From the NCBI GenBank assembly GCA_903885165.1, contig CAISHO010000111.1, forward strand, positions 1 to 36,418: a DNA stretch of 36,418 nt, written 5' to 3'. Position 1 is the first letter of the stretch. Each line of letters opens with the position of its first letter. This DNA is from an uncultured Nitrosomonadales bacterium. Its GTDB lineage: Bacteria > Pseudomonadota > Gammaproteobacteria > Burkholderiales > Gallionellaceae. Below are positions 22,448 to 31,638 of this stretch, piece by piece. The notes beneath the pieces are model-generated. The model worked only from the letters and a program-made list of their open reading frames with translations. It was not told the origin of the DNA and searched no databases. The position numbers and the translations under genes were made by a program.

Positions 22448-22620
22448 TTCATTAGCTTAAAATGCGTTATTCCCGCGCAGGCGGGAATCCAGACGATTAA
22501 TCAAAGTCCCGCGTAGCGGCTCAACACCGCTTTTTTGTCCCTGCCTGCAGCAGGTAGGGGCTTTGCCGGATATTTCATCTTGTTGGATTCCCGCCTGCGC
22601 GGGAATGACGGGCTAATGAA
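22448..22620. repeat. MITE-like inverted-repeat element between mlaF-like gene and acnA
   Basis: A 23-bp perfect inverted repeat (22469-22491 against 22584-22606) starts with ATTCCCGCGCAGGCGGGAAT, the sequence pattern of the dRS3 repeats known from Neisseria. Outside it, TTCATTAGC (22448-22456) and GCTAATGAA (22612-22620) are again exact reverse complements, so the whole 173 bp has terminal inverted repeats of about 44 bp with a mismatched middle. The interior has no gene. This is the architecture of a small non-autonomous mobile element. Confidence 0.75.
22515..22536 (+). terminator. Possible terminator of the mlaF-like gene inside the repeat element
   Basis: AGCGG (22515-22519) and CCGCT (22527-22531) form a short stem with a 7-nt loop, followed by an unbroken run of Ts to 22536. 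The stem is only 5 bp, so termination would be partial. Confidence 0.45.
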
Positions 22621-25685: not shown

Positions 25686-27236
25686 TTGAATAAAAAATTT
25701 ACAGTCCTGTTTTCATTGCTGGTATTGTCCGGTTGCGCGGCAGGCCCTGATTTTAAACGTCCGCCAGCTCCAGTTGCATCGGCTTATACCCCGCAGCCCT
25801 TGCCGGTCATGACCGTTTCTGCCAATGTATCGCAGGGCGGGGCGCAGTCTTTTGTGATGACAGCGCAACTTCCCGCTGACTGGTGGCGTTTGTTTCAATC
25901 TGAGCCTTTGAATGCGCTGGTTGCACGCGCCTTAAAGGCGAATCCCACCATAGAAGCGGCTCAAGCTGCTTTAGCGCAGGCCCAGCAAAATGTGATCGCA
26001 CAACAGGGATTTTTCTATCCTACGGTCGGTGTGAGCTATACACCTTCTAGAAATAAGCTGGCAGGAAATATGGGGGGTAATTCACCCGGGTTGCAAGGTA
26101 ATGGTACGCTGATCCAAACCTATTCCAATCCTGCCGGCCCCAAATACAACGGCCCGGCTTATTACAATTTCCATGTCGCTCAACTGAATGTAGGCTATGT
26201 GCCCGATGTGTTCGGCATGCGACGCAGGCAAGTCGAGTCGGCTGAGGCGCAAGCGCAGATGCAACAGATGCAGTTGCAGGCGACCTATATAACGTTAGCT
26301 TCAAACGTGGTGGCCGCTGCGTTTCAGGAAGCGAGTTTACGCGCGCAGATTGAGGCCGTGAACCGTGTGATCGCGCTCAATCGTGAAAATCTGGAGATCA
26401 TGCGTTCGCAGTTGAAACTGGGTTTTGTCGCCGAGATCGATGTGCTGGCACAGGAAGCTGCACTCGCTCAAACCGAACAGGCGCTGCCACCCCTAGTCCT
26501 TCAGTTAGAACAAACACGCGATTTAATACGTGCACTGGCGGGTAATACACCAGACAGGGATGTTCCGGAGACTTTTGTGCTGGCTGATCTGCATTTGCCT
26601 GAAGCGTTGCCGCTAAGTCTGCCATCCAAACTGGTGGAGCAACGCCCCGATGTGATGATCGCCGAAGCGCAATTGCACGATGCCAGTGCCCAGTACGGCG
26701 TGGCGATTGCCAACCGTTTACCGCAGTTTTCCATTCAGGCCGGGATGGGCGGAATGGCGTCCTCTGCGGATTGGATGTTCCGAGCCGGTGGCGGTTTTTT
26801 CAGTCTGGCCGGTAGCGTGGCACAGACTATTTTTGACGGAGGCACTTTGCGTGCCCAGTCGCGAGGGGCTGAACAGGCATTAATCCAGGCGGGTGCGCAA
26901 TACCGCAGTACGGTGATTTCGGCACTGCAGAATGTCGCCGACACCCTGCATGCCATAGAATCCGATGCACAAGCGCTCCAGGCCGCGGCCGCATCCGAGC
27001 AGGCGAGTAAAAAGGTATTGGATCTGACGATGGCGCAATATAAGTTGGGTTACATCGGTTATCAGAATCTGTTGATGGCAGAGCAAAATTATCGCTTAAC
27101 GACCCTGGTTCTGATACAGGCGCAGGCAACCCGCCTGGGTGATGCCGCCGCGCTTTATCAGGCGCTGGGTGGGGGGTGGTGGAATCAAGCTAATTCCGCT
27201 ACATCAAATTCGCAACAAGGAGTAAATGCTTCATGA
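25686..27236 (+). CDS. Outer-membrane lipoprotein of the RND efflux operon (NodT/TolC family)
   Basis: The product is 516 residues from the TTG at 25686, giving a clean lipoprotein signal (NKKFTVLFSLLVLSGCAAG, lipidated Cys at 17). GGATGGG lies eight bases upstream. A GTG at 25650 would add twelve residues before the signal and is the alternative. Two outer-membrane efflux repeats are present, with ADWWRLFQSEPLNALVARAL, QRPDVMIAEAQLHDASAQYG and the late FDGGTLRAQSRGAEQALIQA motif typical of NodT proteins. It would form the channel for the adaptor and heavy-metal RND pump that follow. The stop overlaps the adaptor start (ATGA). Confidence 0.92.
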   Translation: MNKKFTVLFSLLVLSGCAAGPDFKRPPAPVASAYTPQPLPVMTVSANVSQGGAQSFVMTAQLPADWWRLFQSEPLNALVARALKANPTIEAAQAALAQAQQNVIAQQGFFYPTVGVSYTPSRNKLAGNMGGNSPGLQGNGTLIQTYSNPAGPKYNGPAYYNFHVAQLNVGYVPDVFGMRRRQVESAEAQAQMQQMQLQATYITLASNVVAAAFQEASLRAQIEAVNRVIALNRENLEIMRSQLKLGFVAEIDVLAQEAALAQTEQALPPLVLQLEQTRDLIRALAGNTPDRDVPETFVLADLHLPEALPLSLPSKLVEQRPDVMIAEAQLHDASAQYGVAIANRLPQFSIQAGMGGMASSADWMFRAGGGFFSLAGSVAQTIFDGGTLRAQSRGAEQALIQAGAQYRSTVISALQNVADTLHAIESDAQALQAAAASEQASKKVLDLTMAQYKLGYIGYQNLLMAEQNYRLTTLVLIQAQATRLGDAAALYQALGGGWWNQANSATSNSQQGVNAS

Positions 27237-28384
27237 TCAAATTGAATAAAGTGGGATTGCTGGCGGTGTTGATACTGGGCGGGGCGGGTTATTTTTACTG
27301 GCATAAATTGCATGCTGTATCACATGCACCTGAGCTTATTCAGCCTGCAACACACAAGACTTCCGATACCTTGCGTTTTGAAACTAACGCGCCACAATTG
27401 TCTTTCATTAAAATTTTGGCCGTTGAAGCATTTCCTGAACCGCTGGTTGAGCCTTTGAATGCGCGTATTGCGTATGACGACAACCGGACTGCCCGAGTTT
27501 TTTCGCCTGTTGCAGGGCGAGTGGTGCGCATTCTGGCCGAGATAGGTCGGCATGTAGATAAAGGCGAAGGTGTTTTGGTGCTGGATGCACCGGATTTTGC
27601 ACAAGCCGTTGCTGATAGCCGGAAAGCCGAAGCCGATAAGCTGCGCAAACAGGAGTCGCTGGATAGAGCGCGCTTGTTGTATGAGGCCAAAGGGTTGGCC
27701 CGTAAGGATTTAGAGTTGGCTGAGGCCGATAGCTTGCAGGCTGAGGCCGAAGCGAAGCGGGCGCGGGCCAGGCTGGCAAATTTGAACGGCGAATCAGGGG
27801 CAGGGGCTGAGCAGTATGTACTACGCGCACCCCATGCCGGGGTGGTGAGTGAACGTCAGGTGAGCGCCGGCAGTGAGGTGCGTCCGGATGCGGTTAATCC
27901 GCTGTTCGTGATAACAGAACCTGAGCACGTCTGGGTGCAGGTAGACTTGCCTGAACAACAGATGGGAAAAGTAAAAGTGGGTCAGTCTGTGCAGGTACAG
28001 GTAGATGCTTATCCTGACGATGTTTTTTCGGGAAAAATAACCGTGATTGCAGGCGCGTTGGATCCGGTCACACGGCGCATGCAGGTGCGCTGTGAAATCA
28101 ACAATCCAGAGCTTAAACTAAAACCTGAAATGTATGCGCGCGTCTCGCCGATTGCCGACGTACATGATAGTTTGCCACGTATTCCGAATACGGCGATCGT
28201 CACGCAGGGCTTGTATAGCTATGTTTTTGTTGAACAAAGTCCCGGGGAGTTGCAGCGTAGAAAAGTCGTGCTCGGCTTGCAGGGGCATGAGGAAAGCTAT
28301 GTTAAGGATGGTTTAAAGACCGGAGAGCGTGTTGTAACCATAGGTGCGTTGCTGCTTAATGCCGAGTTGGCAGGTACTGACTGA
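27233..28384 (+). CDS. RND efflux periplasmic adaptor (CzcB/CusB-like)
   Basis: The 383-residue adaptor has one N-terminal hydrophobic anchor (VGLLAVLILGGAGYFYW). The lipoyl/beta-barrel pattern includes RVFSPVAGRVVRILAEIGRH, a short coiled coil (about 125-185, DSRKAEADKLRKQESL), YVLRAPHAGVVSERQVSAGS and the membrane-proximal DVHDSLPRIPNTAIVTQGLY. This is the membrane-fusion family that pairs with heavy-metal RND pumps. No His- or Met-rich metal-binding extension like that of some CzcB/CusB or SilB proteins is present. ATGA overlap with the preceding gene and AAGGAG ten bases upstream mark operon coupling. Confidence 0.9.
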   Translation: MIKLNKVGLLAVLILGGAGYFYWHKLHAVSHAPELIQPATHKTSDTLRFETNAPQLSFIKILAVEAFPEPLVEPLNARIAYDDNRTARVFSPVAGRVVRILAEIGRHVDKGEGVLVLDAPDFAQAVADSRKAEADKLRKQESLDRARLLYEAKGLARKDLELAEADSLQAEAEAKRARARLANLNGESGAGAEQYVLRAPHAGVVSERQVSAGSEVRPDAVNPLFVITEPEHVWVQVDLPEQQMGKVKVGQSVQVQVDAYPDDVFSGKITVIAGALDPVTRRMQVRCEINNPELKLKPEMYARVSPIADVHDSLPRIPNTAIVTQGLYSYVFVEQSPGELQRRKVVLGLQGHEESYVKDGLKTGERVVTIGALLLNAELAGTD

Positions 28385-28389
28385 TGGAC

Positions 28390-28522
28390 GCTTCTAAAAT
28401 CCATTTTTACGGCGCATCGCGGCGTTGCGCGGTACTCGCTCATTCGCCTACCAAATGGTATGTCTCGTTCGCTCCATTCCGTGCGCCTTGCGCTGCATTC
28501 CTAAATTCTGAATTTTAGAGGC
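28390..28522. repeat. Inverted-repeat element in front of the RND permease gene
   Basis: GCTTCTAAAATCC (28390-28402) and GAATTTTAGAGGC (28510-28522) are inverted repeats with two mismatches, bounding about 107 bp of GC-rich sequence with no open gene. The interior (CATTCGCCTACC, GGTATGTCTCGTTCGCTCC) looks like a family of extragenic repeats seen in betaproteobacteria; this is recalled resemblance, not a search. The right arm contains AGAGG, six bases before the RND permease ATG, so the arm supplies the ribosome binding site. Confidence 0.65.
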
Positions 28523-28527
28523 ATCCT

Positions 28528-31500
28528 ATGCTCGAAAAACTGATTACCTTCGCGCTGCAACAGCGCGTCTTCGTGCTGGCAGGCTCGCTGGTTCTGTTGG
28601 TGTTTGGCTGGCGCGCGCTGGACAATCTGCCGATAGAAGCGTTTCCGGACGTGCAGGACGTGCAGGTGCAAATCGTTACCCAAATGCTGGGGCAGGCCCC
28701 TGAAGAAGTCGAACGCAGCGTGACCTTGCCGATCGAGCGCGAAATGAGCGGCGTGCCGCGTATGACGCAATTGCGTTCGGTTTCGATCACCGGTTTATCG
28801 GTGATCACGCTGACTTTTTCCGATAATACCGATGATTATTTTTCACGTCAGCAAGTTCTGGAAAAACTGCAAAATGTGACGCTGCCGCCCGGTGTGCAGC
28901 CAAGTTTGGCACCGCTGACCAATGCGGTCGGTGAAGTGTATCGCTATGTGCTGGATGTGCCTGAAACCATGAAGCCCTACGAGGTGCGCGCCTTGCAGGA
29001 CTGGGTGTTGCGTCCCGCCTTGCGTCAGGTGACGGGCGTGGCCGATGTGGTGAGTTTTGGCGGAACGGTCAAGGAGTATCAGGTTCGCGTCAATCCGAAT
29101 CTGCTCAGAAAGTTTAACATCACCATCGATCAGGTGTCGCAGGCGCTGACTGCAAATAGCAGCAACGGTGGCGGTGGTGTTCTGAGGCGCGGGGATGAGG
29201 CGTTGGTGGTACGCAGCATCGGATTATTCCAGAGTCTGGACGATATCTCTCGCGTCGTGGTTGCGGCTAAAGATGGTAAGACCGTGATGGTGGGCGATGT
29301 AGGTGTGGTGGCGGTCGGCGACCGTCCGCGCTCCGGCGTTGTCGCTTTTAACGAACACGACAATGTGGTGCAAGGCATCGTGCAGATGACCAAGGGGCAG
29401 AATGCCACTAAGGTGGTTGAGGGAATCAAGGAACGCATTGCCGAGCTGACGCCGAAGTTGCCGCCTGGTGTGAAAATCGTTCCTTATTACGATCGCACGG
29501 AACTGGTACGTCATACTGTCCATACGGTGAGTGAAAATCTGATTGTCGGCGCGTTGCTGGTGGTCGCTATCTTGATTTTGTTCCTGCGCAACTGGTATGC
29601 GGCACTGGCCGTGGCAGCGATTATTCCGTTGGCGTTGTTGTTTGCCTTTATCCTGATCGATGCACGCGGCGTCTCGGCTAACCTGATTTCGCTGGGGGCG
29701 GTCGACTTCGGTATCATCATCGACAGCGCCGTGGTGCTGGTCGAAGCGCTGATGGTAAAACTGGCGCTCGCCAAGGCGGACGAATTGCCGCAACACAAGT
29801 CGTACGGCTGGCGCATCCACCTGATCAAGCAGAACTGTATCGAAATGGGTACGCCGATTCTGTTCTCTAAAGCCATCATCATTCTGGCGTTTCTGCCCAT
29901 CTTCACTTTTCAACGCGTCGAGGGCAAGATATTTTCCCCCGTCGCGTTTACCCTGAGTTTCGCCTTGCTGGGTGCGATTATATTGACGCTGACGCTGTTG
30001 CCGGCGCTGTTAAGTTATGCTGTTAAAAACAAAGATTTAGCTGAGCAGCACAGCGAGTGGATGCATAACTTGCAGGAACGCTATCGCGCCATGTTGATCT
30101 GGGCAGAAACGCGTCGCCGGGCTATCGTCGTATCGTCGGTGAGTGTGCTGGTCGTGACGCTGGCTTTGTCGCCGCTGTTGGGTAGTGAGTTTTTGCCTAA
30201 ACTGGACGAAGGCAATATCTGGCTGACCATCAGTCTGCCACCGGCCACGGCGTTGGATAAAACCAAGGAAGTCGAACGTCAGGTGCGCAAGATTCTTAAT
30301 ACCTATCCTGAAGTCAATAACGTGGCCACGCAAGTCGGACGCCCGGATGACGGTACTGATCCTAAGGGGCCAAACAATCTGGAAATCATGGCGGATTTGA
30401 ATCCGCATGATGTGTGGCGTTTTGCCGACAAAGAGGCGATGATCGCTGACATGACGGCCAAAATTCAGGAAATACCGGGTGTGCCGACCAATTTCTCTCA
30501 GGTTATTCAGGATAACGTCGAGGAAGCCTTGTCGGGTGTGAAGGGCGAAATTTCAGTCAAAATTTTCGGTCCTGATCTGGAGATACTGGAGGATAAATCC
30601 ACTCAGGTTGCCAATATACTCGCGGGAATCAGGGGATCCGCCGATGTGGCTGCGATCAAGGTGGGCGGCCAAACTGAGCTGAACGTGACGTTGGATCGTC
30701 AGCGGATGTCACGCTATGGCCTGAATATCAATGATGTGAATGCCACTATCCAGACTGTGTTGGCCAGTAGTACGGTCAATTCCTTCTACGAGGGAGATAG
30801 GCGTTTTGACGTGACGGTACGGATTGACGCGCCTTACCGTGATGCGGTGGATGACGTCCGCGATTTGCCGATAGCGCTGCCGAATGGTGGTTCTATCCCG
30901 TTGGGTTCGATTGCCAATATCGAGGTGCGTCAGGGTGCGGCGCGCGTTGGTCGCGAAGCAGGAGGGCGTGTCGTGGCAGTTAAGGCCAATTTGCTGGGAC
31001 GCGATCAAGGTAGTTTCGTTGCTGAAGCGATGGAAAAGGTCAAGACTGACGTTGCCTTACCGCCAGGATATACCCTGACCTGGGGTGGCCAGTTTGAGAA
31101 TCAGCAGCGCGCCATCAAACGACTCAAGGTGATCGTGCCTGTGTCTATATTGATGATCTTCGTATTGTTGTTCTGGGCGTTCAAATCGATGCGCAAAGCA
31201 TTACTTGTCATCCTGATGGTGCCGTTTACTTTAATCGGTGGCCTGGCCGGATTGGGGTTGGCCGGATTGCACATGTCGGTATCGGCAGCAGTGGGCTTCA
31301 TCGCTGTTGCCGGTATCTCGGTGCAGAACGGGGTGATCATGGTCGAGCAGTTTATGGAAGGGATGCGTAACGGTCGTACGTTGACCATCAGTGTGATGGA
31401 CGGTGCGATTTCGCGCCTGCGCCCTATCCTGATGACCGCCATGATGGCCGGTATCGGTCTGCTGCCCGCCGCCTTGTCGCACGGTATTGGCTCTGAAACT

Positions 31501-31638
31501 CAGCGACCTTTTGCCGTGGTGATCGTCGGTGGTATCGTTTCTGCCACTTTGTTTACCTTGTTGCTATTGCCCTTGTTGTTTCCGATTTTTGCAGAAGAAG
31601 TCAATGTGGCGGAAGGTCAGCCACTCACCAGTGAGTAA
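28528..31638 (+). CDS. Heavy-metal RND efflux permease (CzcA/CusA family)
   Basis: The 1036-residue proton-driven pump has twelve transmembrane helices and two large periplasmic loops. The HME-RND signature in helix 4 is intact: DFGIIIDSAVVLVE with Asp393, Asp399 and Glu406 at the spacing of CzcA Asp402, Asp408 and Glu415. The end matches the family (HMSVSAAVGFIAVAGISVQN, RPILMTAMMAGIGLLPAAL). At the porter-domain position where CusA has its substrate methionine (LYMPVSLPG region), this protein reads IWLTISLPPAT, so Cu/Ag specificity is not supported. The exact metal, or another substrate, cannot be read. The gene lies 143 bp after the adaptor gene, the gap being filled by a repeat. Confidence 0.93.
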   Translation: MLEKLITFALQQRVFVLAGSLVLLVFGWRALDNLPIEAFPDVQDVQVQIVTQMLGQAPEEVERSVTLPIEREMSGVPRMTQLRSVSITGLSVITLTFSDNTDDYFSRQQVLEKLQNVTLPPGVQPSLAPLTNAVGEVYRYVLDVPETMKPYEVRALQDWVLRPALRQVTGVADVVSFGGTVKEYQVRVNPNLLRKFNITIDQVSQALTANSSNGGGGVLRRGDEALVVRSIGLFQSLDDISRVVVAAKDGKTVMVGDVGVVAVGDRPRSGVVAFNEHDNVVQGIVQMTKGQNATKVVEGIKERIAELTPKLPPGVKIVPYYDRTELVRHTVHTVSENLIVGALLVVAILILFLRNWYAALAVAAIIPLALLFAFILIDARGVSANLISLGAVDFGIIIDSAVVLVEALMVKLALAKADELPQHKSYGWRIHLIKQNCIEMGTPILFSKAIIILAFLPIFTFQRVEGKIFSPVAFTLSFALLGAIILTLTLLPALLSYAVKNKDLAEQHSEWMHNLQERYRAMLIWAETRRRAIVVSSVSVLVVTLALSPLLGSEFLPKLDEGNIWLTISLPPATALDKTKEVERQVRKILNTYPEVNNVATQVGRPDDGTDPKGPNNLEIMADLNPHDVWRFADKEAMIADMTAKIQEIPGVPTNFSQVIQDNVEEALSGVKGEISVKIFGPDLEILEDKSTQVANILAGIRGSADVAAIKVGGQTELNVTLDRQRMSRYGLNINDVNATIQTVLASSTVNSFYEGDRRFDVTVRIDAPYRDAVDDVRDLPIALPNGGSIPLGSIANIEVRQGAARVGREAGGRVVAVKANLLGRDQGSFVAEAMEKVKTDVALPPGYTLTWGGQFENQQRAIKRLKVIVPVSILMIFVLLFWAFKSMRKALLVILMVPFTLIGGLAGLGLAGLHMSVSAAVGFIAVAGISVQNGVIMVEQFMEGMRNGRTLTISVMDGAISRLRPILMTAMMAGIGLLPAALSHGIGSETQRPFAVVIVGGIVSATLFTLLLLPLLFPIFAEEVNVAEGQPLTSE

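Follow-up and report, generated by a model that had tools for sequence, protein, structure and literature searches.

A MITE-like palindrome with IS5-type ends at the adaptor-pump junction of a heavy-metal RND operon and at start codons of the same genus

The metal pump operon and the element within it

The DNA analyzed here (the window) is a stretch of 36,418 nucleotides from an uncultured Nitrosomonadales bacterium of the Gallionellaceae. Toward its end, the gene for an RND periplasmic adaptor is followed directly downstream by TGGACGCTTCTAAAAT... and by the gene for a heavy-metal RND permease (Table 1). The original prediction for this DNA, made from the letters alone, placed an inverted repeat here, with AGAGG in its right arm six bases before the ATG of the pump gene and its other arm about 107 bp upstream. 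Both arms are found, at 28386-28403 and 28509-28526; they comprise 18 nt each, are 83% complementary, and lie 105 nt apart. The spacer between the adaptor and pump genes consists of this element save for one base on either side. The right target-site copy reads TATG in the window compared with TGATG in the related genome G010, so one base seems to have been lost. A covariance model of the element core finds the window copy at 28406-28507 with an E value of 2.1e-17. Rfam at the gathering threshold returns a tRNA as the sole match in the whole window, and relaxation to an E value of ≤1 yields no match around the element between 28330 and 28580.

Table 1. Features of the adaptor-pump junction, with positions in the window
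Feature	Position	Strand	Basis
RND periplasmic adaptor gene	27233..28384	+	TIGR01730 above cut-off; stop TGA 28382-28384
Probable left target-site copy TGAT(G), holding the adaptor stop	28382..28385	+	Comparison with G010 (L191) and with element-free TGATG homologues
Palindromic MITE-like element, 141 bp	28386..28526	+	Inverted repeat, DNA matches in 21 other genomes, covariance-model match
Left terminal inverted repeat (TIR) GGACGCTTCTAAAATCCA	28386..28403	+	Inverted-repeat search
Most conserved core motif TCGCCTACC-AAAT-GGTATGTCTCG (TAYC/GRTA stem with loop)	28444..28467	+	Alignment A1, covariation, exact-pattern matches
Right TIR TGAATTTTAGAGGCATCC	28509..28526	+	Inverted-repeat search
Shine-Dalgarno-like AGAGG within the right TIR	28517..28521	+	Sequence; predicted paired; 6 nt before ATG
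Probable right target-site copy TATG, including the pump ATG (28528-28530)	28527..28530	+	Sequence; TGATG in G010
CusA/CzcA-family heavy-metal RND permease gene	28528..31638	+	TIGR00914 at 981 bits (cut-off, 701)

Distribution of the element

Comparison across genomes establishes that the element has homologues. Its own genome holds one other clear relative (C84, 70% identity, E value of 0.0012); the other six of the eight matches of the DNA search in this genome are short and weak, and one of them adjoins the C84 copy. Across 41 genomes, the same type of search gives matches in 22, one of them being the own genome, from 2 of 17 genera; 20 of the 21 other genomes belong to the same genus and 1 to the same order. 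Within the genus, the covariance model of the core, built from 62 sequences, matches in 53 of 61 genomes, with up to 30 copies per genome. Further copies, which the original prediction called for, are thus scarce in the own genome and abundant in the genus. An exact pattern of the core is found at no fewer than 120 places in other genomes; the 80 records listed include Nitrosomonas, Accumulibacter, Pseudomonas, and Halothiobacillus. With a length of ∼143 bp (the span being set by model coordinates), TIRs, and multiple dispersed copies, the element has the general makeup of a MITE.

Junctions with and without the element

The proposed insertion between adaptor and pump is borne out by closely homologous pump genes. 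In 2 of 13 homologues (window included), namely, in the window and in G010, the core lies ahead of the start codon, and the other 11 junctions are free of the element. Five of these 11 show a TGATG stop/start overlap (L190, L193, L194, L196, and L197), four have 0 to 2 nt from stop to start (L192, L195, L199, and L201), and two contain core-less spacers of 45 nt (L198) and 37 nt (L200). These two are the longest element-free spacers, and a spacer as long as that of the window without the repeat arms is absent among the 13 homologues. The element lies exactly where the TGATG overlap occurs in the five element-free homologues. In G010 (L191), the junction reads TGATG-GGAACCTC...GAGGTTCCC-TGATG, i.e., the overlap is duplicated.

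Two further junctions occur in both states, as judged from the best 30 of 53 genomes with a match for nuoL and the best 30 of 57 for tolR, with the junctions of L175 and L227 lying outside the stretch and that of L225 being partly in view. The element is present at the nuoK-nuoL junction in 6 of 30 loci and at the tolQ-tolR junction in 5 of 30 loci, a typical element-free tolQ-tolR junction being ...CCATGAGATC... Several further tolR loci have short core-less spacers. Three of them, L223, L230, and L246, retain GAGAGG or AGAGG before the start codon and by eye look like decayed copies.

Placement at start codons

The genus-wide sample consists of 130 of the 150 covariance-model matches listed (30 provided as loci and 100 fetched), reduced to 129 by the loss of L285 near a contig start. 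Of the 20 matches left out, 16 were already present under other identifiers, including several at start codons (nuoL, tolR copies, and the window itself), and 4 were low ranked. Element ends are set by model coordinates, and genes are represented by open reading frames (ORFs) of at least 70 codons, or at least 50 codons where they run off the locus, some of which are doubtful (L300 and the right side of L336).

The ATG of a long ORF begins 0 to 3 nt past the element end at 68 of the 258 ends, compared with a background of ∼1.6 per nt at distances of 13 to 200 nt. When copies are clustered by their flanking proteins, 91 loci remain, and 44 of them have a start codon at this distance (mean of 5.4 and maximum of 11 at 25 other offsets). 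With one representative per locus, the count is 42 of 91 (mean of 4.7 and maximum of 10 at other offsets). No start codon at 0 to 3 nt is present at 47 of the 91 loci. The 74 start-adjacent ends, 73 from the sample plus that of the window, precede 49 distinct genes. Judging by their N termini, these presumably include tolR, lolD, trpG, ptsI, rmlD, and gmhB.

At the far end of the element, a codirectional stop codon lies within −12 to +6 for 40 of the 73 sampled start-adjacent ends and is lacking from this range for 33. The stop is located at exactly −4 in 15 instances, as is expected of duplicated stop/start overlaps. The 185 other ends likewise show stops at −3 to 0, in 32 instances, and so proximity to a stop is not special to start-adjacent ends. 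The orientation of the element at start codons is about even, with 42 left and 38 right ends at −3 to 10. Some elements lie between divergent ORFs, which rules out coupling as their general role. Long ORFs starting near both ends of the element are seen at L361, L405, L373, L382, and L336, although some of these ORFs are perhaps not genes; a single palindrome might give Shine-Dalgarno (SD) sequences to two divergent genes at these loci.

The original view of the repeat stands in part. It had described an inserted repeat element with a ribosome-binding site in its arm that pairing would hide and that may set pump expression by mRNA folding. The dispersed copies, their absence from most homologous junctions, and the predicted pairing of the likely SD sequence agree with this, whereas the exact placement in the stop/start overlap and its recurrence across the genus were missed.

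TIR type and Shine-Dalgarno sequence

Placement at start codons goes with the TIR and not with the core. This was compared in 99 elements outside the genus sample, a part of which belong to the same genus, with TIR classes assigned by author-made regular expressions. In copies with the CCTC-type TIR, an ATG is found at positions −2 to 5 at 10 of 40 ends (background of 2.0). The same core with the GGAAACGCTGA-type TIR shows an ATG in this range at 2 of 58 ends (background of 2.3), with the CAGGCTGTTGAA-type TIR at 0 of 14 ends (background of 0.6), and with the GAGGTTGTGAA-type TIR at 1 of 26 ends (background of 1.0). For elements with unclassified TIRs, the count is 8 of 60 ends (background of 2.5). 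Read outward, CCTC is GAGG. In the genus sample, 59 of the 73 start-adjacent ends match the SD sequence over at least 4 nt, as do 100 of the 185 remaining ends (P value of 6e-5 by Fisher's test). Within the 67 copies that have one start-adjacent end, the SD match at this end is better than at the opposite end in 26, worse in 11, and equal in 30.

One core apparently travels under several TIRs. Nitrosomonas-type copies such as L061, L078, and L118 contain it under the GGAAACGCTGA-type TIR and show, by eye, the direct repeats TTAA, CTAA, and TTAA at their ends, and full-length insertion sequence (IS) copies with a TIR similar to this type exist (L249 and L264).

Folding, arm pairing, and covariation

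The supposition that pairing of the arms hides the ribosome-binding site agrees with RNA fold prediction. For bases 28385 to 28535, the minimum free energy (MFE) is −45.6 kcal/mol, with a z score of −2.22, and 4 of 200 shuffled sequences fold as well. This fold does not leave AGAGG open: the motif is paired in the MFE structure and likewise in the centroid structure, with a mean predicted probability of being unpaired, P(unpaired), of 0.001. A closed SD sequence, as required for a coupling hairpin, is also predicted for 80% of the 60 start-adjacent ends (of 74) with an SD match of at least 4 nt, where P(unpaired) is below 0.2. In this set, the mean P(unpaired) of the SD sequence rises from 0.10 in the intact element to 0.46 when the first 10 nt of the element are held open, exceeding 0.5 at 37% of the 60 sites, and amounts to 0.32 when the left arm alone is shuffled. 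Holding 8 to 18 nt open raises the value in G010 from 0.001 to 0.31 to 0.47. At the window locus, the same treatment frees AGAGG only to 0.14 to 0.19, which makes coupling of this adaptor and this pump through the hairpin a weakly supported hypothesis.

Comparison of copies shows that the arms covary. The pairing score of arms from the same copy is 11.2, compared with a maximum of 6.5 in 1,000 permutations (91 representatives), and the outer 4 nt match at 0.82 within a copy compared to 0.40 (n = 40). Drift with selection for pairing, or correction by template switching, would explain this arm-specific matching only in part. The arms of start-adjacent copies score higher for pairing (11.95; n = 75) than those of other copies (9.69; n = 54), with a P value of 5e-4. 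The foldback of the core covaries along its whole length, with 185 two-sided changed cells compared to 58 in shuffled data, and the signal is lost on sliding the partners. The pairs of the foldback were picked after viewing of alignment A1, so the percentage paired is inflated and the covariation counts are the useful part. The stem is interrupted by conserved pyrimidine-pyrimidine mismatches (A1 columns 21-85, 29-78, and 45-60) that are nearly invariant. Such near-invariant mismatches within a covarying stem look as if a single folded strand were recognized.

Insertion sequences with the same ends and target duplication

A search with PF01609 identifies full-length IS copies that share their ends with the small elements. 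L257, L263, and L265 contain the TIR GGGCACYTCTAAAAAT, L249 contains the TIR GGGAAACGCTGA, and L264 is similar to the latter; the TIRs of these IS copies match two TIR types of the small elements. The transposases of L257 and L263 belong to the IS5 family, with NF033581 scores of 289 and 304 bits compared to a cut-off of 140. A TIR in common with full-length IS elements of the family, as expected of an IS5-derived MITE, is thereby found in L257, L263, and L265. By eye, the TIR is present and the element core is absent in the 150 nt at each end of the IS copies. Mobilization of the small elements by IS5 transposases would fit these shared ends. The own genome contains one fragmentary PF01609 match with an internal stop, so no active partner is seen there.

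Target duplication was assessed in the 40 copies whose arms both contain CCTC/GAGG. Eight of these 40 copies carry direct repeats of ≥6 nt at their ends, compared with 3.8% of 2,000 cross-element pairings. A 4-mer match at the symmetric register is found in 6 of 40 copies, compared to 0 to 1 at other symmetric registers, and at neighboring registers in 7 and 6 of 40. As judged from these repeats, target duplications are real but worn in most copies, with a length that may lie anywhere from 4 to 6 bp. The twofold TGATG at the czcA junction of G010 is the target-site duplication expected of a MITE. A fixed duplication of 4 bp is not borne out for this genus, given the direct repeats of at least 6 nt and the matches at neighboring registers. 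Two other ideas, that insertion produces the outer arms by copying host sequence in inverted form and that the element prefers hairpin loops, were dropped as main readings in view of the IS copies with the same TIR and the direct repeats at the ends. The outer arms of L155 (first copy), AAAAAATCCCGCCCA and TGGGCGGGATTTTTT, are terminator-like and resemble a bidirectional terminator split by the element.

Proposed mechanism and alternatives

The favored and probable explanation is that a nonautonomous, MITE-like palindrome of the IS5 type entered the stop/start overlap, restored both codons, and supplies an SD sequence from its arm. A palindrome with IS5-type TIRs of about GGRMACCTCTAAAAATC would have entered the TGATG formed by the adaptor stop and the pump start and duplicated a short piece of target sequence. 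The duplication would give back the adaptor stop on the left and the pump ATG on the right. The earlier SD sequence would have had to sit in the coding end of the adaptor gene; any native SD sequence now lies at a distance of over 141 nt, and the one provided by the right TIR would take its place. In the mRNA, the arms would pair and close the new ribosome-binding site. The foot of this hairpin would begin at the upstream stop codon, where a terminating ribosome may press on the left arm and help to open the SD sequence. Since the left arm would be loosened in this way, coupling between adaptor and pump could outlast the 141-nt insertion. Use of the SD sequence, in vivo pairing of the arms, coupling, and selection for either may be proposed on the basis of the comparisons above.

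The element could also be a purely selfish MITE, a serious alternative that is nonetheless held to be improbable on balance. Its positions at start codons would then reflect a target preference for short motifs like TGAT, ATGA, or TCAT combined with the purging of deleterious insertions, and the SD-like TIR would be tolerable and nonregulatory. The direct repeats at the ends, the IS5 copies with the same TIR, and the nearly equal use of both orientations at start codons are in line with this. The slow evolution of copies at shared sites argues against it: in 40 ortholog pairs (41 less one with fewer than 40 four-fold sites, and with the L303/L331 group left out), elements at the same place are 91% identical compared to 67% at four-fold sites, with 80% between unrelated copies, the pairs coming from 12 gene groups and thus not being independent. 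The best identity in 161 same-genome pairs, taken from the 100 fetched copies, is 0.91, so no recent burst is seen, and the copies look old yet retained. The better arm pairing and stronger SD matches at start-adjacent ends likewise speak against purely selfish spread.

A more far-reaching extension of the insertion model is put forward tentatively and is considered less likely than not. Here, a mobile foldback element would have been domesticated across the genus as a portable translation initiation cassette. Selection would keep the folded strand, which would close the SD sequence until the upstream gene is translated and which is perhaps recognized via the invariant core.

A role as a hairpin for mRNA stability or processing, as in ERIC or NEMIS, is unlikely. 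The element would be cotranscribed and cut by RNase or protected, and its overlap with the SD sequence would be incidental. The whole-element fold with covariation of the core suits such a function, as does the ERIC precedent (PMC2229807); placement at 0 to 3 nt and the near restriction to CCTC-type TIRs are left unexplained by it. The idea that the inverted repeat surrounds an ordinary ribosome-binding site by chance, with which the modest z score of the single-copy fold would agree, is refuted for practical purposes by the homologues in most genomes of the genus, the element-free junctions, and the covariation.

Relation to known elements

The element resembles bacterial MITEs of the IS5 family in being short and dispersed, with TIRs that match full-length IS5 elements of the genus and a short target duplication. 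It differs from them in that its TIR can act as an SD sequence at start codons, its foldback covaries over the full length, and its core occurs under several TIRs. With REP and REPIN sequences, it shares the form of dispersed palindromes but is distinguished by its size of ∼143 bp, its long TIR, and an IS5-type partner. Like ERIC/IRU, Correia/NEMIS, and RUP, which are palindromic repeats of ∼100 to 160 bp with TIRs, it lies in transcripts. ERIC affects mRNA stability (PMC2229807). The element lacks an Rfam match and is told apart from ERIC, Correia, and RUP by description and not by sequence; anchoring to start codons goes unmentioned for those families in the available text.

Translational coupling at TGATG/ATGA overlaps has been described by Huber et al. 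(2019; PMC6728339), and one mode described there is sequestration of the initiation region by a hairpin that is opened by upstream translation. The element sits in exactly this type of overlap. In that mode, the upstream gene takes part in the structure, whereas here a mobile element would bring the structure in.

Literature searches on MITEs, repeats with ribosome-binding sites, coupling with IS elements, and TIRs with SD sequences return no account of the element among the matches listed, and those listed for sequence words of the core are all off topic. In the main text of a MITE review (PMC10969869), the words ribosome, start codon, and Shine-Dalgarno are absent. The element is probably an IS5-type MITE anchored to start codons. 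If the favored explanation is true, a transposable element can slip into the most tightly packed site of an operon, the stop/start overlap, while both genes stay intact, and the ribosome-binding site that it leaves there is controlled by a hairpin. Should domestication apply, dozens of operons would have one common transposon-derived coupling device. The rewiring of translation within operons by small repeats across a genus becomes testable, with tolQ-tolR, nuoK-nuoL, and the metal pump as natural pairs with and without the element.

Other repeats nearby

The window contains a second inverted repeat at 22465-22610, with 27-nt arms that are 96% complementary (CGTTATTCCCGCGCAGGCGGGAATCCA). This repeat is presumed to resemble the ATTCCC-GGGAAT (dRS3-like) repeats of Neisseria. 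A further small palindrome, of the GGCAATCCGCGAAGCGGATGC type, is located within the orthologous element of G010 (L191), in its right half, and a similar word adjoins the elements L023, L372, and L396.
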